DNA of 34,873 nt from Nitratifractor sp. (GTDB lineage: Bacteria; Campylobacterota; Campylobacteria; Campylobacterales; Sulfurovaceae), in assembly GCA_015488535.1 (NCBI GenBank), contig WFNP01000054.1:1-34873 (forward strand). The letters run 5' to 3'. The notes below the pieces were generated by a model that had not been told where the DNA came from, did no database searches, and was given only the letters and a program-made list of their open reading frames with translations. Every line of letters begins with the position of its first letter. Positions within the stretch are counted from its first letter, which is position 1. Of the stretch, positions 12,696 to 30,030 are shown piece after piece. The position numbers and the translations under genes were made by a program.

Positions 12696-14186
12696 TTAAT
12701 AACCGCTTACGCTAACCATATAGTTGATATATGACAGCATTGGCTCCATCAAAAATACTGAGAATGTAGTAACTGCTGCTGCAATTCCTACAATCACAAT
12801 AAGAGGTCTAGATGAATTTACACCAATAGCTTCTACACCTTCCGGTTTTGGCTTGAGGAACATATATACAACCAGTTTCAAATAGTAGTATGCTGCAATA
12901 GCACTATTTAGTGCCATAATAACAGCAAGCCAAATATATCCGGCATCTACTGTGGCACTGATGATATACATTTTACCCCAAAACAGACTAAATGGTGGTA
13001 CACCTGTCAAAGAGAGCATAAAGATAGCCATAATGACAGCACCCATAGGAGCACTGTGAATTAATCCGGCAAACTTCTCATAAGGATGATGAAATCTTGA
13101 ATGGTATTTCTTCTGCTTGTGTCTTGTAATCCAAAGCATTGTAAATGCACCAAGGTTTGTAAAGAGGAACAAACCATAGTATAGGAATATACCACTGTAT
13201 GCTTTTGTTGTATCAAGTGCCAATGCCGCCATTACAAAACCGGCATGTGAAATTGAGCTGTATGCCAACATTCTTTTGACATCAAACTGCACAAGTGCCA
13301 TAATATTGGCAAATGTCATAGTAACAACCGCCAAAGCAATTACCATATATCTTACAGGCTCCATACCTATATCTATATAGAAGCTCAATACTCTGATAGC
13401 CACTACCATCATTGCCAATTTTGGCACGATAGACATATATCCCGCCATTGGAGCACTGGAACCTTCATAAACATCCGGTGTCCACATGTGGAAAGGCATC
13501 AAAGAAACCTTAAATCCGATAGCTACCAAAAGCAGTATTGAAGCACCGATAATCGGAAGAGCAATACCTGCTTCTGACATTCTTTCCAATAATATTTTTG
13601 ATACTTCAGAAAGCTCAACAGTTCCACTGATACCATAAATTACAGCTGAACCCATTACATAAAATCCTGCTGCCATAGCACCCATTGTAAAATACTTGAT
13701 TGCTGCTTCATGAGAGCCTCTTGTATTGTGCATGGCAATCATAGTATAAAGAGCCAAAGATGCTGTCTCAAGACCTATGAATATCAAAATCAAATTATCA
13801 GTAGCTACCATAAACTGAAAACCGGCTACCATAAACAGAAACAGAGCAAAATACTCAGGATATGCATATTCATGAAATCTCTTTTGAGTAAGTGCCAACG
13901 GTATAAACAGCATTGATGCCAAAAGAATAATCAATTGAGAAACAATGGATATACCATCAATCAGCATCAAATCAAACAGACCTCTTTCATTGATACTCAA
14001 ACTCAAAACAGCACCAAAATCAACAAAAAGGATGAGTACGGAGAGCATCACATATAGGCTCTTTGTCATATCCTTTTTCAACAAATCTATGATTAATATC
14101 AGCAATGCACCACCAACTGCTACCAACATAGGTGATAGTGTTGTCAAATTAAGTGATGCCATACTTACATTTACTGCCTGTAACAT
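12696..14186 (-). CDS. nuoN: NADH-quinone oxidoreductase subunit N
   Basis: NuoN is one of the three antiporter-like proton-pumping subunits in the membrane arm of complex I. The 496-residue protein is almost entirely hydrophobic with about 14 transmembrane helices. It carries the conserved proton-channel segment KVSLMPFHMWTPDVYEG and the helix with FDVKRMLAYSSISHAGFV. Its length is normal for a bacterial NuoN. Its ATG overlaps the nuoM stop by one base (TAATG). It is the last gene of the operon, directly before the terminator. No missing or altered key residues were noticed. Confidence 0.97.
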   Translation of the reverse strand: MLQAVNVSMASLNLTTLSPMLVAVGGALLILIIDLLKKDMTKSLYVMLSVLILFVDFGAVLSLSINERGLFDLMLIDGISIVSQLIILLASMLFIPLALTQKRFHEYAYPEYFALFLFMVAGFQFMVATDNLILIFIGLETASLALYTMIAMHNTRGSHEAAIKYFTMGAMAAGFYVMGSAVIYGISGTVELSEVSKILLERMSEAGIALPIIGASILLLVAIGFKVSLMPFHMWTPDVYEGSSAPMAGYMSIVPKLAMMVVAIRVLSFYIDIGMEPVRYMVIALAVVTMTFANIMALVQFDVKRMLAYSSISHAGFVMAALALDTTKAYSGIFLYYGLFLFTNLGAFTMLWITRHKQKKYHSRFHHPYEKFAGLIHSAPMGAVIMAIFMLSLTGVPPFSLFWGKMYIISATVDAGYIWLAVIMALNSAIAAYYYLKLVVYMFLKPKPEGVEAIGVNSSRPLIVIVGIAAAVTTFSVFLMEPMLSYINYMVSVSGY

Positions 14187-15712
14187 TATTTTGCCTCCTT
14201 GCCGCTTTTACTGACTCTGATTATCGACTTTGCAGCCGGAGTCTGAGCTTTTTCATGCATAAATGATACCAAAGCCTTTACACTGTTATCAATAGGCACC
14301 AATACAGGTTTTGGATATACACCCAACCATACTACAAGAGCAACCAATGGTATCAATGCAGTCAACTCTTTTGAATCCAAATCTTTCAATTTCTTATTCT
14401 CTTCATTTGTAACGGGACCAAAAAATGACTTCTTATATAAAGAGAGCATATAAACTGCACCCAAAATAATAGAAGTCCCTGCCAATAGAGTCATCACAGG
14501 AGATATTGCAAAGAATCCGGCAAGTGATAGATATTCACCAATAAATCCTATTGTAAGTGGTAAACCTACTGATGCCATCAGCATAATTCCGTAAATGACG
14601 GCATATTTTGGCATCACTGACGCAAGTCCGCCAAATTCACTCATAAGTTTAGTATGTCTTCTGTCATAAATTACTCCAACAAGCAAGAACAAGGCACCTG
14701 AGACTATACCGTGAGAGAGCATTTGGAATATTGAACCAGTAATACCCTCTGCATTCATTGCAAATGTTCCAATAATGATTACACCCATATGAGATATTGA
14801 AGAGTATGCAATTACCTGCTTCATATCTTTTTGTGCATAAGCAACCATTGCAGTATATATAATCATAATAATAGCAATTACAGCTATTGGCATAATATAA
14901 GCTACTGATGCATCAGGGAACAGTGGCAGTGAAAATCTTACAAAACCGTAACTACCCATTTTCAGCAATACTGCTGCCAAGATTACAGAACCGACTGTTG
15001 GTGCCTGACCGTGTGCGTATGGTAGCCAAGTGTGGAATGGAAACATTGGCACCTTGATAGCAAAACCAAGGAAAAATGCCCAAAACAGCCATTTTTGCAC
15101 ATCTAATGGCAATACCAAAGCATACCAATCTGTAAGTGAGAAACTCCATACACCGGATACACTGTGATAGATATATGCTATATAAAGTATTCCAACCAAC
15201 ATAATCAAAGAACCGGCAAATGTATAAAGGAAGAATTTGATAGCTGCATAAACTCTCTTCTCTCCTCCCCATGCACCAATTATATACAGCATTGGAACCA
15301 ATGAAAACTCCCAAAAGAGATAGAATACAATTACATCCAATGATACAAATACTCCTACCATTGCAACTTCAAGAAAAAGAAGAGTAATAATCATATTCTT
15401 TAAGTCTTTTTCTATACTCAAAGCCACAATGCCTATCAATGTCATCAGTGTAGCCATAATCACGATAAAGAGGCTGATTCCATCAACTCCGAGATAGTAA
15501 TTGATACCAAAATCACTCACAAGTGGCACATACTCTATAAACTGAAAACCACTGTTATTTGGGTCAAATGCCATCCATAACCACAGTGAGAGCAGAAACT
15601 CAACTGCTGCTACACTGATACCATAAGTCCGAATACTCTTCTCATCTACCAGCAAGCCCAAAACAGCCGCTAGTAGCGGGAAGAATATCAATACACTTAA
15701 TATATTTTCCAT
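14186..15712 (-). CDS. nuoM: NADH-quinone oxidoreductase subunit M
   Basis: NuoM is the second antiporter-like pump of the complex I membrane arm. The 508-residue protein shows the expected charged residues within helices: Glu in the FWEFSLVPMLYIIGAWGG segment and Lys and His in KVPMFPFHTWLPYAHGQAP. The AYSSISHMGVI motif follows, as in other members of the family. It lies 14 nt after the nuoL stop and overlaps nuoN by one base. Length and motifs are ordinary, which indicates that the proton-pumping part of this complex is conserved despite the altered electron-input end. Confidence 0.98.
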   Translation of the reverse strand: MENILSVLIFFPLLAAVLGLLVDEKSIRTYGISVAAVEFLLSLWLWMAFDPNNSGFQFIEYVPLVSDFGINYYLGVDGISLFIVIMATLMTLIGIVALSIEKDLKNMIITLLFLEVAMVGVFVSLDVIVFYLFWEFSLVPMLYIIGAWGGEKRVYAAIKFFLYTFAGSLIMLVGILYIAYIYHSVSGVWSFSLTDWYALVLPLDVQKWLFWAFFLGFAIKVPMFPFHTWLPYAHGQAPTVGSVILAAVLLKMGSYGFVRFSLPLFPDASVAYIMPIAVIAIIMIIYTAMVAYAQKDMKQVIAYSSISHMGVIIIGTFAMNAEGITGSIFQMLSHGIVSGALFLLVGVIYDRRHTKLMSEFGGLASVMPKYAVIYGIMLMASVGLPLTIGFIGEYLSLAGFFAISPVMTLLAGTSIILGAVYMLSLYKKSFFGPVTNEENKKLKDLDSKELTALIPLVALVVWLGVYPKPVLVPIDNSVKALVSFMHEKAQTPAAKSIIRVSKSGKEAK

Positions 15713-15726
15713 CTATCCTCTCCTTA

Positions 15727-17613
15727 TTATAGTGCGGCAATCGCTGCTAAGATGGTAAGTAGTATTACACCTATTGCCATCCAGTTCAGATAATCTGACA
15801 AATTACCACTCTGTACCTGCACCGATGCTTCACCGCTATCTTCTATGATATGAGCAATTCCATCAACTGTAGCATCAACTACCTGCATATCAACCTCTTT
15901 CCATGCTATATCTGAAAGCTCTGCATAAGGCTTGGATATTGCTCTTTCATAAAATACAGGTATATAGTATTGATTTGAAAGAATTTTATAGATACGACTG
16001 TTTTCAACCTTCTCTTTTCTTACAAGTCTCTCTGAATACATTTTAAATGCTACCCAAATACCACCAAGTGCTATAAACATAGTCAATACAGTAAGTGTGG
16101 TAACCATATGCTCTGTATGCTCACTCATCTCATAAGCCGGTAAGAGTTTTATTACAAACTCTACAAAGTCTTCTTTGAACCAACCAAAGATTATAGCCAA
16201 AATTCCAAGAGGCAACATTGCCCACAATACATAGTTTTGGACTTCATGAGGATGGAAACCATACTTTTTATATCTCTCATCACTCCAGAATGTCAAGAAT
16301 ACCAATCTAAAGCTGTAAAATGCTGTCATACCGGCAGTCAACCACAATACGAACCATATAATATATGTATGCTCATTGAATGCAACTTCCAAAATTGTAT
16401 CTTTTGAGAAGAATCCAGCTAGTGGCCAGATACCACAAAGAGCAAGTGAAGCTACACCCATATATATATAAGTCCATCTCATTACTTTTTTCAATCCACC
16501 CATCTTGAATATATCAAGCTCATCATGCATAGCATGCATTACATTACCGGCACCCAAGAATAGAAGTGCTTTGAAGAATGCGTGTGCTGCAAGGTGGAAA
16601 AGTGCTACCCAGTAAGCTCCAAGACCGGCAGCTGCAAACATATATCCAAGCTGTGACAGTGTAGAGTAGGCGATAATTCTCTTTAAATCTCTGTTTACAA
16701 GTGCCATTGAAGCAGCAAAAATTGCTACAAATGTTCCCACAAGTGCTATAAAATAGCTGACTTCAGGAATTTCAGAGTATAAAGGATTTGCTCTGATTAC
16801 CAGATAAACTCCGGCTGTTACCATTGTAGCAGCGTGAATCAATGCAGAAACCGGTGTAGGACCCTCCATTGCATCTGCAAGCCAAGTATGGAGTGGGAAT
16901 TGAGCTGATTTACCCATTGCACCAATAAAGAGGAATATTCCGATAGCTACAAGTAATCCGTGACTCATTGAAGGCACAGCTTTAAATACTTCATCATACT
17001 GCAAAGAGCCTACATTCCAATAAATCAAAAATATTCCTACAAGCATACCAAGGTCAGCAATTCTATTCATGATAAATGCTTCATTTGCTGCCCATGCAGG
17101 AGAGATAGAAGGATTTACATCTCTTGTAACATCCTCTTTGTGATACCAAAATCCAATCAGCAACCAAGAGCAGACTCCAACACCTTCCCAACCTATAAAC
17201 AGACCAAGGAAGTTATCACTCATTACAAGCACCATCATAGAAAAAACAAATGCTGACAAGTATGAGAAGAATCTGTTGAAACCTTTGTCATGCTCCATAT
17301 ATCCGTTCGAATAGATATGAACCACAGTTGATACAGTAGTCACAACTGTCATCATTACAGCAGTTACCTGATCTACATTAAATCCAAACGGAATATACAT
17401 ATCACCGGCAACTATCCAATCCATCAATTTTACATGAATTGGACCATTCTCCCATACATACATAAGTAGATTGACAGATGCCAAAAATGATATAAACAGT
17501 AAAATAGATGTTACTATACCCGTAATCTGTTTTTTGGGAGACATTCCAAACATTGCCGCAAACAGTGAACCAACTAACGGCGAAAATAGTGCTATATATA
17601 CCAATGATTCCAT
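15727..17613 (-). CDS. nuoL: NADH-quinone oxidoreductase subunit L
   Basis: NuoL is the distal pump of complex I, known for its long lateral helix lying along the membrane arm. The 628-residue protein contains GWEGVGVCSWLLIGFW with the channel Glu, and the QFPLHTWLADAMEGPTPVSA channel segment. IAYSTLSQLGYMF follows. The C-terminal portion, ending in a final hydrophobic anchor (IGVILLTILAAIAAL), fits the lateral helix plus terminal helix. It starts 2 nt after the nuoK stop. Everything seen is typical of the family. Confidence 0.98.
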   Translation of the reverse strand: MESLVYIALFSPLVGSLFAAMFGMSPKKQITGIVTSILLFISFLASVNLLMYVWENGPIHVKLMDWIVAGDMYIPFGFNVDQVTAVMMTVVTTVSTVVHIYSNGYMEHDKGFNRFFSYLSAFVFSMMVLVMSDNFLGLFIGWEGVGVCSWLLIGFWYHKEDVTRDVNPSISPAWAANEAFIMNRIADLGMLVGIFLIYWNVGSLQYDEVFKAVPSMSHGLLVAIGIFLFIGAMGKSAQFPLHTWLADAMEGPTPVSALIHAATMVTAGVYLVIRANPLYSEIPEVSYFIALVGTFVAIFAASMALVNRDLKRIIAYSTLSQLGYMFAAAGLGAYWVALFHLAAHAFFKALLFLGAGNVMHAMHDELDIFKMGGLKKVMRWTYIYMGVASLALCGIWPLAGFFSKDTILEVAFNEHTYIIWFVLWLTAGMTAFYSFRLVFLTFWSDERYKKYGFHPHEVQNYVLWAMLPLGILAIIFGWFKEDFVEFVIKLLPAYEMSEHTEHMVTTLTVLTMFIALGGIWVAFKMYSERLVRKEKVENSRIYKILSNQYYIPVFYERAISKPYAELSDIAWKEVDMQVVDATVDGIAHIIEDSGEASVQVQSGNLSDYLNWMAIGVILLTILAAIAAL

Positions 17614-17615
17614 CT

Positions 17616-17918
17616 TTACCCCTTCAACATAGTGTAATCATCTAAATCGAGACTACCATATTTTTTGTATAACAAAATAAGTAATCCCAATCCGACTGCC
17701 ACTTCACTTGCTGCTACAGCTACAATAAAAAATGCAAACATCTGTCCTGTCAAATCATTATGATAGCTTGAAATTGCTGCAAATGCCACATTTGCGGCAT
17801 TTAGCATAATCTCTGTAGCAAAAAAGAGCATCAGAAGATTTTTTCTTCTGATTACTCCTACCAAACCTATGGCAAAAAGTATAGATGCCAATATAAGATA
17901 GTGACCCAATCCTATCAT
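17616..17918 (-). CDS. nuoK: NADH-quinone oxidoreductase subunit K
   Basis: NuoK is a small membrane-arm subunit with three transmembrane helices that forms part of the proton route between NuoJ and NuoN. The 100-residue length is standard. The conserved helix-two Glu lies in LLMLFFATEIMLNAANVAF and the helix-three Glu in VAVAASEVAVGLGLLILLY. The start overlaps the nuoJ stop as ATGA, and nuoL begins 2 nt after its own stop. No anomalies were seen. Confidence 0.97.
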   Translation of the reverse strand: MIGLGHYLILASILFAIGLVGVIRRKNLLMLFFATEIMLNAANVAFAAISSYHNDLTGQMFAFFIVAVAASEVAVGLGLLILLYKKYGSLDLDDYTMLKG

Positions 17919-18475
17919 TTGCTATCCTTTTCTAGTTGAGCTTTCAATTCCTCTTCACTCATTCTTGAGATACTGTTATCCATCTTTTTACCTGCTAATA
18001 TAATTCCGGCAATCATAGCAACAAGTAGCATAATAGCTGCTACTTCAAATGGAACAAGATACTTGGTAAACAGCACCAATCCCACTGCCTGAGGATTTGT
18101 AGCACCTGCCATTTCAGGATAGAATGACGGAACTCCATTGATAAGTGTCGGAGCAGTAAAGATACCCACTAATAAAACAGCTGTCAATACACCCAAAAGT
18201 AAAACTGTAAAGTTTGGTCTGTTCTTCTCTTTCACAGTGCCTGTAGCATCAAAGAACATCATACCAAATGCATACAGAGCCATTACAGCTCCTACATATA
18301 CTATCAGCTGAACAACACCCAAGAAATCTGCTCTGAGTATAAAAAACAGTCCAGATATCAATATCATTCCCGCAGCCAATGCCGTCATGGCATTGAGAAT
18401 ATTTTTGCTCCATACGGTAATAGTAAAAAGTATAGTTATTGATATCGCAAGAAAATAAAATGCGAATGTTTCCAT
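17915..18475 (-). CDS. nuoJ: NADH-quinone oxidoreductase subunit J
   Basis: NuoJ is a membrane-arm subunit whose third helix contains a pi-bulge linked to coupling between quinone chemistry and proton movement. The 186-residue protein has five hydrophobic segments. The conserved Gly- and Tyr-rich helix appears as QLIVYVGAVMALYAFGMMFF. A final helix and a charged cytoplasmic tail follow (SRMSEEELKAQLEKDSK). The start lies 9 nt after the nuoI stop, and its own stop overlaps nuoK. Assignment rests on sequence and on exact position in the nuo order. Confidence 0.95.
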   Translation of the reverse strand: METFAFYFLAISITILFTITVWSKNILNAMTALAAGMILISGLFFILRADFLGVVQLIVYVGAVMALYAFGMMFFDATGTVKEKNRPNFTVLLLGVLTAVLLVGIFTAPTLINGVPSFYPEMAGATNPQAVGLVLFTKYLVPFEVAAIMLLVAMIAGIILAGKKMDNSISRMSEEELKAQLEKDSK

Positions 18476-18484
18476 TGCCTCTCC

Positions 18485-19108
18485 TTAATATGCCAGCGGC
18501 GTTTTTTTGATTTTTTCGTCCGCATCTGCTGATACTGCTCCAAATCCAGGATATTCGCTCTGCTGAGCCAATTGATCCAATGGAGTAAGCATATCTTCAA
18601 ATGTAGAATAACTGGCTCTTTGCTCACTGGCAGTCTCATATCTGCCACCATGAACAATTGCCAATTCCGGACAAACCTCTGCACAGTATCCACAAAAGAT
18701 ACATCTACCAAAGTTGATGGTATATTCACTTACCTCTTTTCTCTGATTTTCATCATATCTTGTATCCATTCTGATACAGTTTGCAATACATATTTTTTCA
18801 CACAGACCACATCCGATACATCTGTAATGACCACTTTCTAGCAATCTTTTCATCTCATGAATTGCTCTGTATCGTGGAGATATAGGCAATTTTTCAAATG
18901 GATACTTGGTTGTATGCATTTCACCTCTAAAGAGTGCATTAAACATCTCTCTAAAAGTTACTTTCAATCCTGTAAAAAGCTCTAATTTGACACTTCTTTT
19001 TACTACCTGTTTAAATTTGTCCATTCCTGTTTCAGGATTAGGCTCCAAATCCAACATTCTATAGTTTTGGACACCAACATTCCTGTCTTTAAACTCTTCC
19101 ATACTCAT
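18485..19108 (-). CDS. nuoI: NADH-quinone oxidoreductase subunit I (two 4Fe-4S ferredoxin)
   Basis: NuoI carries clusters N6a and N6b, which relay electrons from NuoG toward NuoB and the quinone site. The 207-residue protein has two ferredoxin motifs: Cys97, Cys100, Cys103 and Cys107, then Cys136, Cys139, Cys142 and Cys146 followed by Pro. The first motif lacks the usual Pro after its fourth Cys and instead reads CIANC, with an extra Cys111. The N-terminal region of about 70 residues includes the amphipathic segment that lies on the membrane. A tail of about 50 residues follows the clusters. AAGGAGGAGCTA precedes the chosen ATG. Confidence 0.97.
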   Translation of the reverse strand: MSMEEFKDRNVGVQNYRMLDLEPNPETGMDKFKQVVKRSVKLELFTGLKVTFREMFNALFRGEMHTTKYPFEKLPISPRYRAIHEMKRLLESGHYRCIGCGLCEKICIANCIRMDTRYDENQRKEVSEYTINFGRCIFCGYCAEVCPELAIVHGGRYETASEQRASYSTFEDMLTPLDQLAQQSEYPGFGAVSADADEKIKKTPLAY

Positions 19109-19118
19109 TAGCTCCTCC

Positions 19119-20108
19119 TTATATCATCATCCAAAGACCTGTGAGAGTCACATTGATTACCGCCAACGGCATCAACACTTTCCAACATAGCCACATCAAC
19201 TGATCAGGTCTTATATGAGGCCAAGAGGCTCTCACCCAAAGCATCAAAAAGAAGAAGAATGATACTTTCAGAATAATTGCCAAACCTCCTGGTATAAAGC
19301 CCCAGCTGTTAAATCCTCCAAAGAAAATAAGAGCTGCCAAGAATCCAATAGTAATCATATTGGCATACTCACCTATAAAGAACATTCCCCATCTCATACC
19401 GCTGTACTCTGTAGCATATCCGGCTACAATTTCAGCTTCATGCTCCAACAGGTCAAATGGAGTTCTGTTTGTCTCAGCAAATCCTGCAATGATAAACAGA
19501 ATAAATGCCAACGGCTGCTGCCAAATCAACCAGTGAGTAATACCGCCACTTTGATAATTGTTAAAATCTATCAAAGAGAGTGAGCCTACTATCATAATAG
19601 GTGCCAGTAAGGATAAGCCTGTTACTACTTCATAACTCAAAAATTGAATTGCTGTTCTTGCTGAACCAAGCAAACCCCACTTGTTTCTTTGAGACATACC
19701 AGCCAATAGTGGTCCATAAAGTCCAGCTGCCATCATACCAAGCACAAATAATATACCTATATTTAAATCTGAAATAATAGGTCTAACCTCTATACCAAAC
19801 AGATTAAATTCAGGTAACAATGGAACTGCAGCAAGAGCTATAAATGCTGTAGCTGCCGTAATAACCGGAGCGAGCATAAATATAAATTTGTTAGCCCCAC
19901 TTGGTATAAAATCCTCTTTTGTAAAGAGTTTGATACCATCAGCTGCCAATTGAAGCAATCCGTAAGGTCCTACATGCATAGGTCCTAATCTTCTTTGCAT
20001 AAATGCCAAGATTTTTCTCTCGATATATGTTCCAAATCCTGCCAAAGCAGAAATGATTGCCAATACCAGAATAGCTTTTATAATCGTTCCTACGATATAT
20101 CCATCCAT
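19119..20108 (-). CDS. nuoH: NADH-quinone oxidoreductase subunit H
   Basis: NuoH forms the membrane part of the quinone cavity and the first proton channel of complex I. The 329-residue protein has about eight transmembrane helices and the diagnostic loop segments ERKILAFMQRRLGPMHVGPYG, GLLGSARTAIQFLSYE and AETNRTPFDLLEHEAE, plus the late RASWPHIRPDQLM motif. Length and motifs are normal. It starts 2 nt after the second nuoG stop and is followed by nuoI after 10 nt. The gene supports a complex that reacts with quinone in the normal way. Confidence 0.97.
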   Translation of the reverse strand: MDGYIVGTIIKAILVLAIISALAGFGTYIERKILAFMQRRLGPMHVGPYGLLQLAADGIKLFTKEDFIPSGANKFIFMLAPVITAATAFIALAAVPLLPEFNLFGIEVRPIISDLNIGILFVLGMMAAGLYGPLLAGMSQRNKWGLLGSARTAIQFLSYEVVTGLSLLAPIMIVGSLSLIDFNNYQSGGITHWLIWQQPLAFILFIIAGFAETNRTPFDLLEHEAEIVAGYATEYSGMRWGMFFIGEYANMITIGFLAALIFFGGFNSWGFIPGGLAIILKVSFFFFLMLWVRASWPHIRPDQLMWLCWKVLMPLAVINVTLTGLWMMI

Positions 20109-20110
20109 TT

Positions 20111-22579
20111 CTACACCCTTTTAATTGTTACTTTTGCATAGCGACTATCACCAAACAGTGAAATCACATCAGCTGAACTAATAAAGTCAGGAATCTCTAC
20201 AATACTACCACTCATTCTATCATCCTCGATAACATCAAGAGTAATACATTTGTCGTTAATTGTTACCTCTACCTTTTCACCAAGCTCTTTTGCCCTCTCT
20301 GGTGAAGCATACAGTGCAAACTTTTCAAAAATTTGATGAGCTTTGTCAGTAAAGTCATTAAATTGTCTTTGAGGATTGCTTCTATATGCTATATCAGCAC
20401 TTTTAAGAGCAGTCTTGTCATCTATTTTTCTAGGATTTGTGCCTTTTGCTCTACTGTTGATAGAAGATAGCTCATAACCTCTGACTTCTGTCCCATCATT
20501 TAGATAATGATTAGGCAAATCATCAAATTTGACTTTTTGGAAGCCTTTTTCAAGCGGTAACTCTTCTGTCCAGTCAATGGTCAATCTTTTACCAACTCCC
20601 AACTCATTCATAATATCATTGAGTTCATATCCATTATACTCTAATGCTGCATTGGTAGGCACGACTCTTTTATTCATAATTACCATTGTGCCTTCTTGCT
20701 GATTGATTGCCGGCATATCTATATCACCATCACCAAGGGCAGAGAGTCTGTAATCACCAGGCTCATTATATCCGACAGTAAAGCCCTCTGCTTCATCATC
20801 CAAATCACAAATGAGTGATACTCCCATAGAGTTACCTTTTGGTGGCACAAATACTATTTTCATATCACTGCATTTTTCAATCAAAGCTATAAGCCTGGCA
20901 ATATTGTCACTGTTTGGATGGTAGTAGAGATCTTCACCTGCAATCAATGCATAACTTGTCTTTTTCTTATTGAGTTTCTCAAAAGTTTCATTGAAATTTT
21001 CAGCATCACCGCCAACTCTTTCAACCAAGAGGTTATAATCATACTCTACCTCTTTTTCTACCATCTGTGGGACTTTTTTCTTGACCTCTTTCTCTTCACC
21101 TGTCTCTTTATCGACTACCTTTTCCACTACATCTTTCATCACTTTTTCTTTGATGGTCTTCTTGCGTGTTTCGTGGAATTTGGATAGATAATCTACAACT
21201 GCTTTTGGTAATTTACTCTTATCGGCAAAGAGATCTAAGATAAGATATAGTACTGCTTCTTCATCTCCAGGATTATGCTCAAAAGTCTCTACAGTTTTAC
21301 CAAATGTCGGAATAAGTTTATCTCCTACCGGATGGAAATAAAGAGCTGAACCTTTATTCATCTTTTGGACATTATTAAAGGCATATCTTGCATTTGGATT
21401 ATCATTTCTAAGCTTACTTCCAATAGATATTACAAAATCGCACTCTTGCATTATCTCTTTGTAATCATTTGGATAGAGGTTATGACCACTCTCTTTTGCG
21501 TAATGCTCCATAAATTTCTGATATGCTCTTGCATAAGGATTGTAAAGTTTTACTCCAAACTTCTCTTTTAGAGTCTGTAGCATTAAAGCCTCTTCATTTG
21601 TAATCATATTATTAAATCTGATTGTTTTGGCTTTTTTAATTGCTTCTACAGCATCCTTTAGAGCTTGTGGGTCTTTTTTGGCATCTCTGTTTTCAAAATC
21701 ATAGGCAAATCTACCTGCTCCACATAGAGATACATAATTCCACTCATTTTTGACTCTAAATATCTTCTCCTCTGTATTATCAATAGAGTCAAAGCGTGTC
21801 TCATAATAGATTTGGCATCCACTGCTACAATGCATACAGGTTGCCGGTGTCTCTTTTAGCTCCCAAGGATTGGCTTTATATACAAAATCTCTCTCTGTCA
21901 ATGCACCTACCGGACATACTGCGGTGCATTCACCACAATCTGAGCAGTTTGTATGCTCTGTGCCATTACTTGGGACAATGATAGATTTTTGCAATTTATT
22001 CCACATAGCATAGGCATCTTTTGGTGCTGTCTCTTTATATGCTTTATCTACAGCGTCACCACCTCTTTTGCCAGTTTTTATGGCACTGTCACCTATCATA
22101 TCTTTACAAACAGTTACACATCTTTCACAGACGATACAAAGACCTGCATCATAGTGTAATACGCTACTCCAGTTTTTCGTCTCTCTCAAAGTATCTCGTA
22201 TTGCAAAGCTTTGAGAATCAACCTCCAGCTCAAGTGTATAATTTTGCAGTTCACACTCTCCGTGCTGGTCGCATACGCCACACTGCAATGGATGATTTAC
22301 ATCATACACCTCCATTATAGCCCGTCGCTCTTCCATTATCTCTTCGCTAACGGTTGTTACATTCATACCCTCTTTTGCTTTTGCATTACAGGCATAAACT
22401 CTCTTGCCGTCAGCTTCAACAAGGCAGAGGCGACAAGCAAGGGTTGGTGAGCACCTCGTCAAATAACAAATCGCAGGGATAAATATATCGTTGGCTCGTG
22501 CAACATTAAGGATATATTCACCCTCTTGAGTCTTGCACTCTTTACCGTCGATTATTATCGTAATTTCATTTTTACTCAT
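20111..22579 (-). CDS. nuoG: NuoG paralog 2 (iron-sulfur subunit, longer copy)
   Basis: This is the second of two adjacent NuoG proteins. It has 822 residues. The cluster ligands appear complete: a 2Fe-2S set (Cys38, Cys49, Cys52, Cys64), a His-Cys3 cluster in NHPLQCGVCDQHGEC, a 4Fe-4S set in CIVCERCVTVC, another in CSDCGECTAVCP, and the N7-type set CMHCSSGC with the later LCGAGRF Cys. A degenerate molybdopterin-oxidoreductase domain follows. Compared with the upstream copy it has two insertions: about 27 residues before CSDCGEC, and a charged Lys/Glu/Val stretch at about 468-516. It overlaps the upstream nuoG by 8 nt. Whether both copies sit in one complex is unknown. Confidence 0.93.
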   Translation of the reverse strand: MSKNEITIIIDGKECKTQEGEYILNVARANDIFIPAICYLTRCSPTLACRLCLVEADGKRVYACNAKAKEGMNVTTVSEEIMEERRAIMEVYDVNHPLQCGVCDQHGECELQNYTLELEVDSQSFAIRDTLRETKNWSSVLHYDAGLCIVCERCVTVCKDMIGDSAIKTGKRGGDAVDKAYKETAPKDAYAMWNKLQKSIIVPSNGTEHTNCSDCGECTAVCPVGALTERDFVYKANPWELKETPATCMHCSSGCQIYYETRFDSIDNTEEKIFRVKNEWNYVSLCGAGRFAYDFENRDAKKDPQALKDAVEAIKKAKTIRFNNMITNEEALMLQTLKEKFGVKLYNPYARAYQKFMEHYAKESGHNLYPNDYKEIMQECDFVISIGSKLRNDNPNARYAFNNVQKMNKGSALYFHPVGDKLIPTFGKTVETFEHNPGDEEAVLYLILDLFADKSKLPKAVVDYLSKFHETRKKTIKEKVMKDVVEKVVDKETGEEKEVKKKVPQMVEKEVEYDYNLLVERVGGDAENFNETFEKLNKKKTSYALIAGEDLYYHPNSDNIARLIALIEKCSDMKIVFVPPKGNSMGVSLICDLDDEAEGFTVGYNEPGDYRLSALGDGDIDMPAINQQEGTMVIMNKRVVPTNAALEYNGYELNDIMNELGVGKRLTIDWTEELPLEKGFQKVKFDDLPNHYLNDGTEVRGYELSSINSRAKGTNPRKIDDKTALKSADIAYRSNPQRQFNDFTDKAHQIFEKFALYASPERAKELGEKVEVTINDKCITLDVIEDDRMSGSIVEIPDFISSADVISLFGDSRYAKVTIKRV

Positions 22580-24848
22580 TGCTTCTACCTACTTTTTCAA
22601 TTTTAGCTTTGTTAAATCTATATGAGGATATCGCAAAACTACTTAATCCGATATCGTAAATTGGGTTTAAAGCTATAGTTCCTTTCAAAGATGTATCAAT
22701 GCTAAACACTCTTTCAAATTCAATATCAGCAACTTTGAATTTGACTATATCCCCATCAGATATTTTTGCAGCTGTTGCAAACTGCTTGGAGCCTCTAAGT
22801 TCTCCTCTGTTTTCAAACATTTTACTTTTGTTTGTAAATGGATTGAAGTTTCCTCTATCATTACATAGATATACGATTGTTCCGTCAAAACTCTCTATAT
22901 CATCAGTATCATCAGGTAACAGTTTTGAAGATACTTCGCTATTGTCTATAAGATAGCCTCTCTTATTCTCACCATCTATACCAAACTCATCAGGCAAATT
23001 ATCAAAAGCTATATTTTTAAAGCCCTTCTCTTCTGGCAATTGAGATGTCAAATCAATAATATATTCATAATTTAATCCAAATGCCTCTCTTGCAATATCA
23101 AGCAACTCATAGCCATTGTAACCAAGAGCCGGATTTGTAGGTACAACCCTTTTATCTATCGTCGTGAATGTCCCCTCTTGTTGGTTGAGTGCCGGCATAT
23201 CTATATCACCATCACCCAAACTGCTCATTACAAAATCTCCGACAGAGTTATATCCAACAGTGTAACCTGATGCTTTATCACTCAAATCACATATCAAAGA
23301 TACTCCCATTGTATTGGAAGCAGGAGGGATAATCAATAGTTCAAAATTGCTGTATCTATCTATCAATCCAAGAATTTTGGCTATATTTTTGGCTTTTGGA
23401 TGTTTGTATAAATCTTCACCGGCTATCAGTGTGAAACTTTTTTTCTTCCACATCATAGCCTTAATTTCATCCAACTCCTCTTCTGATACATTACTCTCAG
23501 CACTGATATATCCAATATCCAAATTATCAAGCCACTTTTTGGCATCTTCATCCAATTTACTCTTGTCTATTAATATATTTGCCAAAAGTGCTACTACTCC
23601 CTCTTCACTACCCGGCTCATATTTTACAAATTTTGTTACAAGATTTTGTAATCTTTTATCTTCAATCGGATGTAGATAAGCAACTTGAGCTTTTTCTCTT
23701 TTGACTGATGTTGCCAAGTGATACTTTACCATTGGAGCATCATCATACAATCTTGTGCCAAGAACAATACTCATTTGAGATTTTGATAAACTCTTTAAAT
23801 CGCTACCGTAAAATCTCTTGCCTGATGTTTGGGAGTATGCTTTTATAAATTGGGAGTAAGCATAAGCATCATCACATACAAGTTTTGCACCGCTGATTTG
23901 AGATATTTTTTGTAGTAACAGAGCCTCTTCATTGGTAATTACAGAAGCAAATCTTATCGTTTCAGCCTTTTTAAGAGCATCTACTGCTTTGTTGAATGCC
24001 TCTTTATCTTTGGCATTGACTCTATTTTCAAAATCAAATGCAAATCGCCCTGCTCCACACAGTGAGCTATACTCAAACTCATTTGTTACTCTGTAAATTT
24101 TCTCTTGAGGATTATCAATAGATTCATGTTTTACTTCATAATATAATTGACAATGACTGCTACAATGGCTACAACTTGCCGGAATTGGAGAAAGTTCCCA
24201 CGCATTGGAAGAGTATTTAAAATCTGTGCTTACCAATGCACCAACCGGACATACAGCCATACACTCTCCACACTCCATACAGTCATCATCTTGTTTTACA
24301 TTTACAATTGTAGATTTATATCCGCCTACACTGATTTGGAGAGCTTCATCACCTACAATCTCATTACAGACTCTTACACATCTTTCACACATAATACACA
24401 AAGATGGATCATAACTGATAAATCCCCAGTTTTGTGTAGGTCTATGCTGATCTTTTGCGGTAAATTCCTGTGTATCTACTTCAAATTCAAGGGTTTTATT
24501 TTGCAATTCACACTCACCGCTTTTGTCGCACACTCCACACTCAAGCGGGTGATTGACATCATAAAGCTCCATAATCTTTTGTCTCTCTCGCCAAATATCA
24601 GCTGTATTTGTATTAATTACTGCACCATCGACAGCCTTTTCTTGACAAGAGAGTATCATACCATCTACCCCCTCGACATTGACCACACACATACGGCAAG
24701 AGGCGATAGGCTCAACTTTTGTCAAATAGCACATAGTAGGAATATATATCCCATTTTCTCTGGCTACTTCAAGGATTGTTTTACCCCACTGCGTCTTTAT
24801 CTCTTTACCATCAATTGTGATAGTAATTTCTTTTTTTTGACTACTCAT
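22572..24848 (-). CDS. nuoG: NuoG paralog 1 (iron-sulfur subunit, shorter copy)
   Basis: This 758-residue NuoG is the first of the tandem pair. It retains a 2Fe-2S ligand set (Cys40, Cys51, Cys54, Cys68) and the His-Cys3 motif NHPLECGVCDKSGEC. Two ferredoxin-type sets follow, CIMCERCVRVC and CMECGECMAVCP, then the N7-type CSHCSSHC with the later LCGAGRF Cys. A catalytically empty molybdopterin-like domain comes next, sharing long segments with the second copy such as NTMGVSLICDL and GDGDIDMPALNQQEGT. The start lies 1 nt after the stop of the FAD-containing neighbour, so electrons probably pass from that protein to this one. Conservation of all ligands in both copies argues against either being a decaying duplicate. 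Confidence 0.94.
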   Translation of the reverse strand: MSSQKKEITITIDGKEIKTQWGKTILEVARENGIYIPTMCYLTKVEPIASCRMCVVNVEGVDGMILSCQEKAVDGAVINTNTADIWRERQKIMELYDVNHPLECGVCDKSGECELQNKTLEFEVDTQEFTAKDQHRPTQNWGFISYDPSLCIMCERCVRVCNEIVGDEALQISVGGYKSTIVNVKQDDDCMECGECMAVCPVGALVSTDFKYSSNAWELSPIPASCSHCSSHCQLYYEVKHESIDNPQEKIYRVTNEFEYSSLCGAGRFAFDFENRVNAKDKEAFNKAVDALKKAETIRFASVITNEEALLLQKISQISGAKLVCDDAYAYSQFIKAYSQTSGKRFYGSDLKSLSKSQMSIVLGTRLYDDAPMVKYHLATSVKREKAQVAYLHPIEDKRLQNLVTKFVKYEPGSEEGVVALLANILIDKSKLDEDAKKWLDNLDIGYISAESNVSEEELDEIKAMMWKKKSFTLIAGEDLYKHPKAKNIAKILGLIDRYSNFELLIIPPASNTMGVSLICDLSDKASGYTVGYNSVGDFVMSSLGDGDIDMPALNQQEGTFTTIDKRVVPTNPALGYNGYELLDIAREAFGLNYEYIIDLTSQLPEEKGFKNIAFDNLPDEFGIDGENKRGYLIDNSEVSSKLLPDDTDDIESFDGTIVYLCNDRGNFNPFTNKSKMFENRGELRGSKQFATAAKISDGDIVKFKVADIEFERVFSIDTSLKGTIALNPIYDIGLSSFAISSYRFNKAKIEKVGRSNE

Positions 24849-24849
24849 A

Positions 24850-26859
24850 TCACACCGCCACCATAGAAATGTAATAGCATCTCATACATCTTTCAGCTTC
24901 AGCCACAGCCTGTTCGCCTGTAAATCCAAGATTTACTTCAAGGTTATTATCTTTTCTCTCATCTACTTCAAGCTTTTCACTCACATTTCTTGGAATACCC
25001 GGCATCCAACCTGTAATTTTTTCATTTTTGTCATAAACTTTGAGTCTGTTTAGATGATCTTCCATAATCTCTTCATCAGTGAGTGATACTTTGCCATCAT
25101 ATATATATCTTGAGATTACAGATGCTGCTCTTTTGGCTTGTCCTACGGCATTGACTATTGTCATAGGTCCATATTCACAATCTCCGGCAGCAAAGAGTCC
25201 CGGACGACTTGTCATATAATCTCTTCCATTTGTAAGAAGTGTATTCCAACTTGTAAGCTCAAGGTTCCACTCCTCTGGCAATATGCTCAAATCAGCAGAT
25301 TGAGATACCGCTGGTATTAGCCAATCACACTCTATCTCGAAGTCTCCTCCTTCAATTTTGACCAGTTGTGGTCTGCCGCCATTTGGATCAGGCACCAATT
25401 CAAAGCGATTTACAATAAGCTTTTTAAGTTTGTTATTCTCATCTACAATTTTAGAAACAGCAGAGTGGAATATAAACTCAACCCCCTCCTCTACTGCTTC
25501 GTGATACTCTTCATAAGTAGTATTTCTGATAATGGTTTTTTCATCTCTACGATATAGCATTATTACCTTTTTGGCACCCTCTCTGATTGAGCATCTAACC
25601 ACATCCATAGAGGTAAATCCACCACCTACACAGACTACTACCTTATCTTTGAGTTCATTTGATGCCGGAGAGCCGATTTTATATTTGTGCCAGAGATTTA
25701 CTTTGTCAAGCATTGAGATAGCTCCCCAATACCCTTCCATATCCTCTCTTTCATTCTCCGCTCTTACTTTTTTGGATAATCTTGTTCCAAATGCAAGAAG
25801 GACTGCATCATACTCTTTATCCAACTCTTTAAGTCTATTGGCATCTACTTTATGATTGGTATATACATCAACCGCTTCAAGTGATGTAACAAGCTCAATA
25901 TCTTTGTTATATTTTTCAATTGGCATTCTGTATTGAGGAACTCCAACTGCAACTTCACCACCCAATACTGGAAGCTCTTCAAAGATATCTACTTTTATAC
26001 CTTCAAGCCCCAAATAGTAAGCAGCTGTAAGTCCAGCCGGACCTGCTCCAACAATAGCCACCTTTTTACCGTCATTTCTGAGAGGTTTAGGCTCTTGTGG
26101 GTGTAAAAATCCCAATCCGTGGTCTGTCTCATAATCGGCACCAAGTCTTTTAAGCTCCATAATTGATACAGGCTCATCAAGATTTGCTCTTCTACACGCA
26201 TCTTCACAAGGGTGTGGGCATACTCTTCCGCAAGTGTGAGCCAAAGGCATAGTCTGTCTTGTAGCTTGTAAAGAATCGGTAAATACCATATCTCTAACCC
26301 CTTCAATATATGCAGGGATATCTACATGAGATGGACACATATCCATACAAGGAGCAGTAATTTTGGCTATATAACCTCTCTGCTCATCATACTCTTTGGA
26401 TTTTTTATTTTCAGTTATACACTCATCAAACTGCTCTTTATATTTTTCCATCAAATCCAAAATTGGTTTTGGCACAGTTCTACCAATTTCACATTTTGAG
26501 GTTAGCATCATTGTTTGAGATACCTCTTTTAGATGCTCTATATCTTCAAAGCTACCCTCGCCTCTGGCAATCTTATCAAGCAAATCATATAAAATTCTGC
26601 CTCCCCATCTACCAGGAGCACATCTACCACAAGCTTCAGAATATTTTTGATACTGAGCAGCATACTCCATAGCCAGACGGACAGCATCTATATTTTCATC
26701 AAAAATAACTACTCCATCCCAACCTATAAATGCCCTACTTTTAGTATCAGCATCATAAGTTTCAGGCACTTTGTAGCCAGATTCTGCCCAATCCTCTAAC
26801 GGTTTGCCTCTGTTATCTATCTCTTCACCCCGCCAAGTAGAGAGAATTACCTTTGCCAT
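24850..26859 (-). CDS. Complex I input subunit: NuoF N3-domain remnant fused to GltD-like FAD/NAD(P)H oxidoreductase
   Basis: The 669-residue protein occupies the nuoF position but is not NuoF. Residues 40-150 resemble only the C-terminal iron-sulfur part of NuoF: a GGVIVMDE-like strand, then EACGRCAPGR with Cys77 and Cys80 but Gly83 where the third ligand should be, and SKCEIG with Cys123. The FMN and NADH domains of NuoF are missing. Residues 165-669 are a full GltD-type module: CMDMCP (171-176), C-x3-C-x3-C-x3-C at 210-222, FAD motif GAGPAGL (271-277), second nucleotide motif GGGFTSMD (412-419) followed by YRRDE, and a GDCEYGP segment. The C-terminus has CMRC (658-661). The Arg-Arg pair hints at NADPH. 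It probably feeds electrons to, or accepts them from, the NuoG proteins. Confidence 0.88.
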   Translation of the reverse strand: MAKVILSTWRGEEIDNRGKPLEDWAESGYKVPETYDADTKSRAFIGWDGVVIFDENIDAVRLAMEYAAQYQKYSEACGRCAPGRWGGRILYDLLDKIARGEGSFEDIEHLKEVSQTMMLTSKCEIGRTVPKPILDLMEKYKEQFDECITENKKSKEYDEQRGYIAKITAPCMDMCPSHVDIPAYIEGVRDMVFTDSLQATRQTMPLAHTCGRVCPHPCEDACRRANLDEPVSIMELKRLGADYETDHGLGFLHPQEPKPLRNDGKKVAIVGAGPAGLTAAYYLGLEGIKVDIFEELPVLGGEVAVGVPQYRMPIEKYNKDIELVTSLEAVDVYTNHKVDANRLKELDKEYDAVLLAFGTRLSKKVRAENEREDMEGYWGAISMLDKVNLWHKYKIGSPASNELKDKVVVCVGGGFTSMDVVRCSIREGAKKVIMLYRRDEKTIIRNTTYEEYHEAVEEGVEFIFHSAVSKIVDENNKLKKLIVNRFELVPDPNGGRPQLVKIEGGDFEIECDWLIPAVSQSADLSILPEEWNLELTSWNTLLTNGRDYMTSRPGLFAAGDCEYGPMTIVNAVGQAKRAASVISRYIYDGKVSLTDEEIMEDHLNRLKVYDKNEKITGWMPGIPRNVSEKLEVDERKDNNLEVNLGFTGEQAVAEAERCMRCYYISMVAV

Positions 26860-27092
26860 TATTTACCCTTTTTTCTGACGACAATAGTCCAATCTACTTC
26901 ATTGAACTTGAGTGAATTGAGTAACTCATGACCATGCTCTTTGACAATATCGGCACTCTTTTGAATAGGAGAAAAATCACCTATCTCAAAGAGAAAAATT
27001 CCTACCTCATCATTTTTTAAATCATTCTCAATCAATTCGATCATACGGTCATAAAAGTTATCTTTTAAGTGTCTTAAATCATATCTTTGCAT
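26859..27092 (-). CDS. Small cysteine-free NuoE-like complex I protein
   Basis: This 77-residue protein sits between nuoD and the FAD subunit, exactly where nuoE is expected. It resembles the short proteins found at this place in Campylobacter and Helicobacter (Cj1575c and HP1264 type). It has no cysteine, so it cannot carry the 2Fe-2S cluster N1a of true NuoE, and it lacks the thioredoxin-like ferredoxin domain. The sequence is soluble and mixed in charge, with a hydrophobic VGIFLFEIGDF segment and VDWTIVVRKKGK at the end. AAAGGATTAGAT precedes the ATG. Its stop overlaps the next start by one base (TAATG). A structural or docking role is inferred. Confidence 0.85.
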   Translation of the reverse strand: MQRYDLRHLKDNFYDRMIELIENDLKNDEVGIFLFEIGDFSPIQKSADIVKEHGHELLNSLKFNEVDWTIVVRKKGK

Positions 27093-27115: not shown

Positions 27116-28342
27116 CTATCTATCAACTTCACCAAATACTATATTTGTGCTACCTATAATAGTAACAACATCAGCTATATATGTGCCAGGTAAAATATCT
27201 TGTAATATTCCTGTATGGAAAAAACTTGGAGCTCTACATTTGAGTCTATAAGCATACGGCTCTCCCTCACTTCTAATCAAGAATCCCAGCTCACCCTTTG
27301 GAGACTCTGTTGGAGCATAAACTGTGCCTTTTGGAGGTCTCATCCCCTGAGTTACAAGCACAAAGTGCTGCATCAAAGCATAGTTTTGAGTCATAATCTC
27401 CTCTTTTGGAGCAGAGATATATCTTGGAGCGTGAGCCATTAATTGAGAATCAGTTGTATAATACATATCAATAAGTTGTCTTAGTATCTTGATAGACTCT
27501 TTCATCTCTTCCATATATAGGCGATATCTTCCGTAACTATCACATCTATCACTTACCGGGATATCAAAATCAAGCTCACTATATAGCTCATAAGGCTCTT
27601 CTTTTCTGATATCATATTTAATTCCTGAACCTCTGAGCATAATACCAGAGCATCCCCAACTTAGAGCCTGTTCTGGTGTAACAATACCTACATTTTCCAG
27701 ACGCATTTTCCAGATTCTGTTCTCTGTCAATAGATCTTCATAGAGTTTGATTTGAGATGGAAGCTTATCCAAAAATCTAGCCAGATTTTCCAACCAACCA
27801 TCTGGCAAATCCAATGGCACTCCACCAATTCTGACTGCTGAGTGTGTAAGTCTGGCTCCACAATAATCCTCCATCAAATCCATTGCAAACTCTCTTTCTC
27901 TAAAAGCATAGAGGAAAATTGACATAGCACCCACATCAAGTGCATGAGTAGCAAGGAAAAAGAGGTGAGAGATAATTCTATTTAGCTCAAGTAGCATCGT
28001 TCTAATTACCTGAGCTCTTCTTGGGGCTTCTACTCCAATTAATCTCTCTACTGCCAAAGCAAAAGCGTAATTGTTTGAAGTAGATGCTATATAATCGAGT
28101 CTGTCTGTGGTAGGGAGAAACTCATTATATATCATATTCTCCGCCATCTTCTCAATCCCTCTATGCAGGTATCCGATATCCGGATATGCTTTTACTACCT
28201 GCTCACCTTGAAGCTCAAGCACCAATCTAAGCTGACCGTGTGCTGAAGGGTGCTGAGGACCAAAGTTGATTACCATTGTATTATCATCTCTTTCGAAATT
28301 TAGGTTTTCGAAAAAGGGTCTTAATTTATTTGGCTGTTGCAT
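27116..28342 (-). CDS. nuoD: NADH-quinone oxidoreductase subunit D
   Basis: NuoD is the 49-kDa subunit that forms the quinone-binding pocket with NuoB. The protein shows [20 protein letters not shown], with the His of the quinone headgroup site, then [12 protein letters not shown] and the late [19 protein letters not shown] segment. It ends [18 protein letters not shown], the typical family end. The frame extends to 28423, but I choose the ATG at 28342. That ATG follows AGGAGAGAG, lies 10 nt after the nuoC stop, and removes 27 residues of non-homologous sequence, giving the usual length of 408 residues. All features are ordinary. Confidence 0.97.
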
Positions 28343-28352
28343 ACACTCTCTC

Positions 28353-29147
28353 CTATTTTCTTTTATCAAGAGTCTTGTGCGGACCCTTATTATAATCAGA
28401 TAGAGGTGCAGAACTATACTCAATAGGTGTCTCAGTAGTATCTACCAATGATGGGTCTGCACCAAATGGCACCTCTTTACCAACTCTTGCAAATCTTTGA
28501 GTATCATATCTATCCACTCTTGCCGGATCTCTGTTTTCCGGTCCGATAATATCTCTATACTCTTTGCCAAAGATTTTATCTACCTCATACCATGAGGCAA
28601 ATTCATCACCCTCAAGCGGATAAGTTTTGCGAAGTGGATGCCCTTCCCAATCGTCTGGCATAATGATTCTTTTTAGATATGGATGGTTATTTACATATAT
28701 ACCAAACATATCATACATTTCTCGCTCAGCAAATTTTGCCATATCATATAGAGGCACAATACTCTCAATAGATTGATTCTCTTTTATTCTTGTAATAATT
28801 CTGGCTCTTTTTCTCTCTGTCATATTCAAGAATTGATAAAATATCTCAAATTCACCATCTTGAGATAGATAATCAATAGCACTAAGTTCAGAGCATACAG
28901 AGTATCCACACTCCTCTTTGAGTGCTGTAATAGCATCAATATTCTGCTCCGGCTTGATTTCTAATACCAACTGCCCAAGCTCAATATAACTATCAAGCAA
29001 TTCAACACTCTCAGAGATTATTTTAGATACTGATGCAAAATGCTCATCTTCACTCACATCAACTCTGGGTATTATGGGAGCCACCCAATATCTGTCATTA
29101 TATTTGGCTCTTTTTTGAACATTATCTTTTGGAGTATATCTTCTCAT
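28353..29147 (-). CDS. nuoC: NADH-quinone oxidoreductase subunit C
   Basis: NuoC is the 30-kDa hydrophilic subunit that scaffolds NuoD and NuoI. The 264-residue protein contains the family core: [20 protein letters not shown], then [32 protein letters not shown] and [16 protein letters not shown]. Extra sequence of about 35 residues at the N-terminus and 60 at the C-terminus is less conserved, and the C-terminal tail is rich in Pro, Thr and Lys. It is separate from nuoD, not fused as in Escherichia coli. The start overlaps the nuoB stop by one base (TAATG). Confidence 0.97.
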
Positions 29148-29659
29148 TATACAAACCTCTGCTTTCTGTTTTTATTCATATCCGCAGACTCTCTGCGAAT
29201 CTTTTTCTGAAGCATCATCATCGCATACTGCAGTGTCTCCGGTCTAGGAGCACAACCGGGTAGATAGATATCCACTGGAATTATTCTATCAACCCCCTGC
29301 ACTGTGGCATAAGTATTAAACATACCACCGGTATTTGCACAACTACCCATAGAGATTACCCACTTTGGCTCTGCCATCTGGTCATATAATCTTCTTGCAA
29401 ATTCAGCATGTTTTTTGGATAGTGTCCCAGCCAAAATCATTACATCAGCCTGTCGTGGAGAAGCACGAAATATGACTCCCATTCGGTCAAAGTCAAATCT
29501 ACTTGCACCTGAAGCCATCATTTCGATAGCACAACAAGCCAAACCATAAGTAAGAGGCCACAAAGAGTTGGATCTACCCCAGTTTAAAAGTTTATCTACC
29601 GTAGTAAGTGCTACCGGTAATCCTCCATTGGAGGCATAATTTACCTGATGCTGTGCCAT
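29147..29659 (-). CDS. nuoB: NADH-quinone oxidoreductase subunit B
   Basis: NuoB binds cluster N2, the last iron-sulfur centre before quinone. The 170-residue protein has all four expected ligands: adjacent Cys42 and Cys43 in [10 protein letters not shown], Cys107 in MGSCANTGG and Cys136 in PGCAPRPE. The [15 protein letters not shown] segment is typical. The basic C-terminal tail (about residues 154-170) is less conserved. The start lies inside nuoA, a 19-nt overlap that suggests coupled translation. No deviations in key residues. Confidence 0.98.
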
Positions 29660-30030
29660 TCAAGAGCTCCTTTCTTCCATGCATATACAAATCCAATCGC
29701 CAAAAGAGCGATAAAAAGTATCATCTCTACAAAACCAAACCAACCAAGTAGCTTAAAATCAATCGCCCAAGGAAACATAAATATAATCTCTACATCAAAC
29801 AGAATAAAAAGCAGAGCTATGAGGTAGAATTGAACCGATATTCTGTTAGGTTGTTTATCAGGCTCAGGTCCACACTCATATATTGACATTTTCAATTTCT
29901 CAGTTTCAAGTTTGGCGAGTTTTCTACTCACATATCTAGCCAATACCAAGGTAGCCGGAAACGCCACCATAGTCAAAACGAATAATACAAACACACCAAA
30001 ATAGGGATGTTCGGTTACCACATGTGTCAT
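29641..30030 (-). CDS. nuoA: NADH-quinone oxidoreductase subunit A
   Basis: NuoA is a small membrane subunit with three transmembrane helices whose first loop lies at the quinone cavity. The 129-residue protein shows the loop motif [13 protein letters not shown] with the redox-exposed Cys, then [22 protein letters not shown] with the conserved acidic residues in helix two. AAGGGGT precedes the ATG by 7-8 nt. It is the first gene of the 15-gene nuo operon, with a predicted promoter about 70 nt upstream. Everything is typical. Confidence 0.97.

Follow-up and report, generated by a model that had tools for sequence, protein, structure and literature searches.

Among the closest described relatives of the operon investigated here are the epsilon-type (NuoXY) complexes I of Campylobacter jejuni and Helicobacter pylori. 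According to reviews, nuoXY replace nuoEF in these complexes and connect them to flavodoxin, and the use of flavodoxin rather than NADH is reported for C. jejuni complex I (PMC6682613, PMC4178425). Canonical 14-subunit complex I (NuoA-N) contains one NuoG together with NuoE and an FMN-bearing NuoF. Soluble enzymes of the SfrAB type, without proton pump, combine a GltD-type flavoprotein of ~76 kDa with a NuoG-like Fe-S partner. Examples are Geobacter SfrAB and the NADPH-dependent formate dehydrogenase of Moorella, composed of SfrB2, SfrA2 and FdhF3 (PMC13040438), in which a further NuoG/FdhF-type subunit follows. In the bifurcating transhydrogenases StnABC and NfnABC a GltD domain is wired to a NuoG-like domain, with NADPH at the GltD FAD; StnC fuses the GltD and NuoG parts in one chain (PMC10482914) and is accompanied by the HydB/NuoF-type FMN subunits StnAB.

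The window, i.e. the whole stretch of 34,873 nucleotides analysed, belongs to a genome of 1.87 Mb and carries a complete nuo operon on its minus strand, to which all window coordinates below refer: nuoABCD, then genes for proteins of 77 and 669 aa, a pair of nuoG genes and nuoH-nuoN. Upstream in the operon, nuoD, nuoC, nuoB and nuoA are located at 27116..30030. The longest frame of nuoD (27116-28423) begins at a TTG within nuoC; its likely start is the ATG at 28343, preceded by the purine-rich GGAGAG. The 77-aa gene is nuoX (26859..27092), the 669-aa gene encodes a flavoprotein termed N3-GltD (24850..26859), and the nuoG genes are referred to as nuoG-a (22572..24848) and nuoG-b (20111..22579). 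After nuoG-b, nuoH (19119-20108) and nuoI (18485-19108, with NCBIfam NuoI matches) are the next partners in the chain, followed downstream by nuoJ to nuoN (12696..18475). Across families, every uncut operon with N3-GltD that was read keeps the order nuoX, N3-GltD, nuoG-a, nuoG-b, nuoH.

Similar to C. jejuni and H. pylori, the operon comprises nuoABCD, a nuoX orthologous to HP1264, a NuoG-a-derived protein between nuoX and nuoG-b, nuoG-b itself and nuoH-N. In contrast to these organisms, which have the NuoY stub and no N3-GltD, it encodes full-length NuoG-a and N3-GltD. With canonical complex I it shares the NuoG fold, the N1b-N4-N5 chain and all membrane and quinone-module subunits, whereas N3-GltD and NuoX are found instead of NuoF and NuoE. 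Both nuoE and nuoF are missing from the operon, and nuoX stands between nuoD and nuoG in place of nuoE. Its identity as the orthologue of HP1264/Cj1575c follows from the matches to the PDB 2LXR chain (E=6e-27) and to PF16514 (140.6 bits). The NuoF domain PF01512 has no match anywhere in the window's genome. N3-GltD is therefore the only pyridine-nucleotide entry encoded by this operon. A canonical NADH-type complex I was ruled out, as there is no NuoF with the FMN/NADH domain, and so was membership in the StnC/NfnABC group, since a genome without a PF01512 protein has no FMN bifurcating subunit.

N3-GltD consists of a NuoF C-terminal N3 domain (PF10589; residues ~40-148, 26416..26742), a Fer4_20 domain (PF14691) and GltD/NfnB-type FAD and NAD(P)H domains (PF07992). 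The earlier note had described a GltD-like protein; the GltD-type part is real, the NuoF-type N3 domain had been missed. Relatives in the PDB are NfnABC, StnC, NfnL and GltD, and the N-terminus matches the HydB/NuoF type. At the N3 site, Cys77, Cys80 and Cys123 are present in 30/30 N3-GltD proteins, and the fourth ligand position is Gly83 (window 26611-26613) in all 30 Campylobacterales proteins; a Collinsella homologue has cysteine at all four positions. The three-cysteine N3 would be an unusual cluster site; a working [4Fe-4S] N3 is putative, and N3 is thus the weakest point of the electron path proposed below. In the AlphaFold model the Fe-S regions have pLDDT values <50 and are unusable for N3 geometry. 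The C-terminal CMRC motif (residues 658-661, 24877..24888) aligns with the N-terminal CxxC of NfnL, its cysteines being found in 29/29 proteins, and provides two of the eight cysteines of the GltD cluster region, so that a circular permutation makes up the full ligand set of the GltD clusters. NADPH appears likelier than NADH as substrate because the invariant YRR motif of N3-GltD also occurs in the NADPH-binding StnC and NfnL. The gene also occurs in records named Sulfurimonas, Sulfuricurvum, Hydrogenimonas, Nitratiruptor and Arcobacter. In one Helicobacteraceae-like genus the N3 part is separated from the GltD part by an insertion of ~190-240 residues (L073 6812-9595; L074 5885-8773).

This layout of NuoF N3 domain, GltD domain and C-terminal CxxC is that of the SfrB type and recurs in Collinsella, where the gene adjoins an [FeFe] hydrogenase whose front end is NuoG-like. 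SfrB-type N3-GltD proteins are detachable modules through which NuoG-like partners are linked to NADPH; the likeness of the locus to Geobacter SfrAB and Moorella SfrB2/SfrA2/FdhF3 was drawn at the level of their description. In the present operon, by contrast, the genes of the module accompany those of a proton-pumping complex I, to which it appears to be joined via an extra NuoG.

The two nuoG frames are adjacent with an overlap of 8 nt (22572-22579 is common to both) and encode 758 and 822 aa, in agreement with the overlap and the 64-residue length difference given in the earlier note. Most of this difference is accounted for by one ~46-residue insertion of NuoG-b near residues 453-500 together with the greater distance between the two ferredoxin motifs of NuoG-b. 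Both proteins exceed the cut-off (591 bits) of NF006305, the NCBIfam Campylobacterota NuoG model, with 898.5 bits for NuoG-a and 1090.4 bits for NuoG-b, and their identity is 45.3% over 744 aligned positions. Every ligand set named before, i.e. N1b [2Fe-2S], N5 His-Cys3, N4, the second ferredoxin-type set and N7, was found again in both; in NuoG-a all of them lie in the Fe-S half (residues 1-280, 24009..24848). The canonical NuoG proteins compared contain no full second ferredoxin-type set. The N1b, N5 and N4 ligands are combined in both proteins with the NuoG/FdhF fold, for NuoG-a taken from an AlphaFold model (pLDDT 89.9; NuoG/FdhA fold with Z 24-27).

Trees were obtained by quick searches, and the family names of the survey genomes are partly inferred. 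Across the Campylobacterales all NuoG-a and all NuoG-b fall in two separate clades. In the tree of the Fe-S half these clades are apart from canonical NuoG, with SH-aLRT values of 87 and 92 that are below the 95 mark. In the H. pylori group (G052; its NuoX and HP1264 are identical at all 75 residues compared) and in a Campylobacteraceae-like family the only NuoG is a NuoG-b according to the tree, which makes NuoG-b the core subunit and the pair ancient. The suggestion of functional division within an old pair instead of a recent duplication is thus supported by the separate clades and by the presence of the pair in most families of the order. Recent tandem duplication was ruled out by the 45% identity together with the order-wide separation, and chance or an assembly artefact by the dozens of genomes sharing the gene order.

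Of 40 aligned NuoG-a proteins, all have the full ligands of N1b, N4 and N5, 30 those of the second ferredoxin cluster and 36 those of N7. Loss of ligands in relatives had been named as a sign of decay of one copy; it does occur in some NuoG-a lineages for N7 and the second ferredoxin cluster, whereas N1b, N4 and N5 stay intact. The ferredoxin set is lost as a whole or nearly so, including the fourth cysteine of the other motif, and such a coherent loss is as expected for a cluster that would lie off the electron path. A reading of NuoG-a as a duplicate in decay that has little function is hardly credible: it evolves somewhat faster than NuoG-b, its identity to near relatives being lower (65 vs 74% and 60 vs 66%), and several lineages lack its side clusters, but the on-path ligands are fully retained, most families of the order have kept the pair, and the loss of the second ferredoxin cluster as a mostly coherent four-ligand set looks like refinement.

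Replacement of the second ferredoxin cluster in NuoG-a was seen in G014, G015, G020, G024 and G029 and in ten A3 rows (L105, L178, L111, L109, L112, L113, L128, L140, L130, L157); the ligands of one cluster are replaced across both motifs and those of N4 remain complete. Many lineages, whether they have N3-GltD or not, show replaced N7 ligands in NuoG-b (G077, G150, G161, G034, G088, G092, G151, G033, G053, G059, G109, G026, G029, G021).

The length of NuoG-a follows the N3-GltD state in 49/49 sampled operons: 32 genomes have N3-GltD and full-length NuoG-a, 17 have neither. On a species tree built from eight other Nuo subunits of these 49 genomes the N3-GltD state changes 8 times, 6 of the changes being forced by well-supported branches and one lying within a single genus (G013 vs G023). 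In all 6 independent contrasts NuoG-a length agrees with the N3-GltD state (p=0.031). A class survey of 377 genomes revealed ~115 with a strong N3-GltD match. When 80 of these were searched again, the C-terminal domain of NuoG-a was found in 80/80, in frames of 668-842 aa among the matches listed and not cut by a contig end. The best ~150 matches to this domain all lie in N3-GltD-free genomes; their frames measure 227-354 aa, except for one of 547 aa with a stop inside the match. As full-length NuoG-a forms one clade, the changes are read as losses. On this reading the double loss of N3-GltD and the NuoG-a Fe-S half occurred at least 6-8 times, each loss of the flavoprotein being accompanied by that of the Fe-S half with retention of the C-terminal domain. 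Autotrophy as the sole reason for keeping the module is not supported: ATP-citrate lyase (PF16114) is encoded in 23/32 genomes with and 3/17 without N3-GltD, and only 1-2 of the 6 independent contrasts agree, none disagreeing. The module does not track the presence or absence of another NuoF either.

In operons without N3-GltD the gap between nuoX and nuoG-b usually holds an ORF of 230-350 aa at the position of HP1265/Cj1574c, i.e. NuoY. The NuoY family aligns along its entire length with the C-terminal half of NuoG-a (hhalign, E=6.4e-78) and matches NuoG-b with E=2.1e-35; with the canonical NuoG proteins compared there is no match. The homologous segments of NuoG-a are residues ~330-525 (23274..23861, including LDIGYISAESNVSEEE) and ~640-758 (22572..22931). 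Missing from NuoY are residues 1 to ~330 and ~525-640, which comprise all Fe-S domains. The motif LDxGYLSAESNxxEEE is common to NuoY and NuoG-a, and NuoG-b carries an insertion there. Pfam has no family for the NuoY of H. pylori and of the Campylobacteraceae-like family, and NCBIfam gives weak NuoG similarity only. A halfway form exists in G034, a 472-aa remnant with a retained PF00384 match. Judged from these alignments, NuoY (HP1265/Cj1574c) is a truncated NuoG-a without the Fe-S half, which the earlier note had overlooked for Campylobacter and Helicobacter. NuoX thus seems to belong to the original set of components, NuoY being a remnant. NuoY has long been listed as the substitute for NuoF and assigned the uptake of electrons from flavodoxin; it now obtains an origin as the C-terminal half of a lost second NuoG. 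No part of NuoY is recognisable as cofactor-binding, which makes a structural role the likelier one.

In one set of genomes NuoX and NuoY are fused in a single 351-aa ORF (L080 4211-5266), and frames of fusion size (352-354 aa) occur in three genomes, G339 and G373 among these. The fusion places NuoX beside the C-terminal domain of NuoG-a. That this domain is retained between nuoX and nuoG-b even without electron transfer fits its binding to NuoX, NuoG-b or both within the complex. Only alongside N3-GltD is the Fe-S half of NuoG-a kept, so that both probably form one electron path.

We consider it probable from these sequence comparisons that N3-GltD and NuoG-a constitute a removable NADPH input/output module on complex I, with NuoG-b as the core NuoG. 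In complex I, N3 of NuoF normally delivers electrons to NuoG. In the proposed mechanism the operon would encode an epsilon-type complex I containing two NuoG subunits. At the FAD of N3-GltD, electrons would be exchanged with NAD(P)H, NADPH being the most likely form, and would pass via the GltD clusters and the NuoF-like N3 domain to NuoG-a (N1b, N4, N5) and further via NuoG-b, NuoI and NuoB to menaquinone; run backward, the same path would accomplish reverse electron transfer. NuoX/NuoG-b could remain a point of entry for flavodoxin or ferredoxin, as is the case in Campylobacter. A lineage dropping the NADPH module would lose N3-GltD and the NuoG-a Fe-S half together, the C-terminal domain staying as NuoY. 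The data show the gene order, the domain composition, the conservation of the ligands, the truncation of NuoG-a to NuoY and the repeated joint loss; we infer the series arrangement, NADPH instead of NADH and the direction of flow. More tentatively, and with somewhat less than even confidence, we propose the complete picture of a peripheral arm with two NuoG in series as an Fe-S wire of double length, an SfrB-type NADPH flavoprotein at the tip and flavodoxin entering midway via NuoX, in which NuoY is a fossil of the outer NuoG left by recurrent joint loss.

Of the three models put forward in the earlier note, the series within one complex is favoured, as the C-terminal domain of NuoG-a retained in the nuo operon points towards attachment to complex I. 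The separate soluble module is correct insofar as the GltD-type protein and NuoG-a act as one module; that they form a co-transcribed but unbound SfrAB-like NADPH oxidoreductase, passing electrons to ferredoxin/flavodoxin, we regard as unlikely. Geobacter SfrAB and Moorella SfrB2/SfrA2 are soluble, and NuoY as the remnant of NuoG-a can occur apart from the nuo operon. A free enzyme would, however, be expected to disappear or relocate as a whole, whereas most lineages keep the remnant between nuoX and nuoG-b after loss of N3-GltD, and in some genomes it is fused to NuoX, a complex I subunit. Still more doubtful are alternative arms on one membrane arm, NuoG-a with N3-GltD as an NADPH-type and NuoG-b with NuoX as a flavodoxin-type arm. 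Such an exchange would be compatible with the complete on-path cluster chain and the NuoG fold in both proteins, but NuoG-b is never lost alone in the operons read, NuoG-a is truncated and not deleted once the donor goes, and no reason would remain for keeping its C-terminal domain beside NuoG-b. The tight coupling by the 8-nt overlap within one operon also suggests joint use. Returning to the removable module, complex I of the Sulfurovum/Sulfurimonas type is predicted to exchange electrons between menaquinone and NADPH via the second NuoG. Bacteria of this type are major vent chemolithoautotrophs that need reverse electron transfer, and the route by which they produce NAD(P)H is, to our knowledge, not firmly established. 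As the module was lost repeatedly in nature, matched genome pairs are at hand for testing.

The literature searched, in which early genome papers were lacking, describes neither a tandem nuoG with N3-GltD nor an origin of NuoY by truncation of a NuoG; prior notice of either in older papers is possible.

NuoY-like proteins also stand alone where the epsilon nuo operon is absent (L059 7107-7877, L097 6273-7043, L095 8295-9005, L096 8075-8845, L079 6792-7466, L098 9829-10512). Their neighbours are an mqn-type menaquinone-biosynthesis gene and murB in Arcobacter-like genomes, hemN in a family resembling Nautiliaceae, and elsewhere flagellin/Maf genes. Most of the checked genomes with a stand-alone NuoY keep some NuoD-bearing complex, whereas in one Helicobacteraceae-like genus most are without it. 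The occurrence of NuoY in genomes lacking this operon indicates a role of the NuoG-a C-terminal domain outside this complex. In some Helicobacter-like genomes and in G026 NuoY was undetectable; in the latter, nuoX is followed by a single nuoG-b and nuoH (L034 5363-8849), and BLAST recognised no other nuo genes in the 15-kb stretch. G023 apparently has two NuoX-NuoY sets on separate contigs (C9:3-1352; C59), representing either a second operon or a contaminant.
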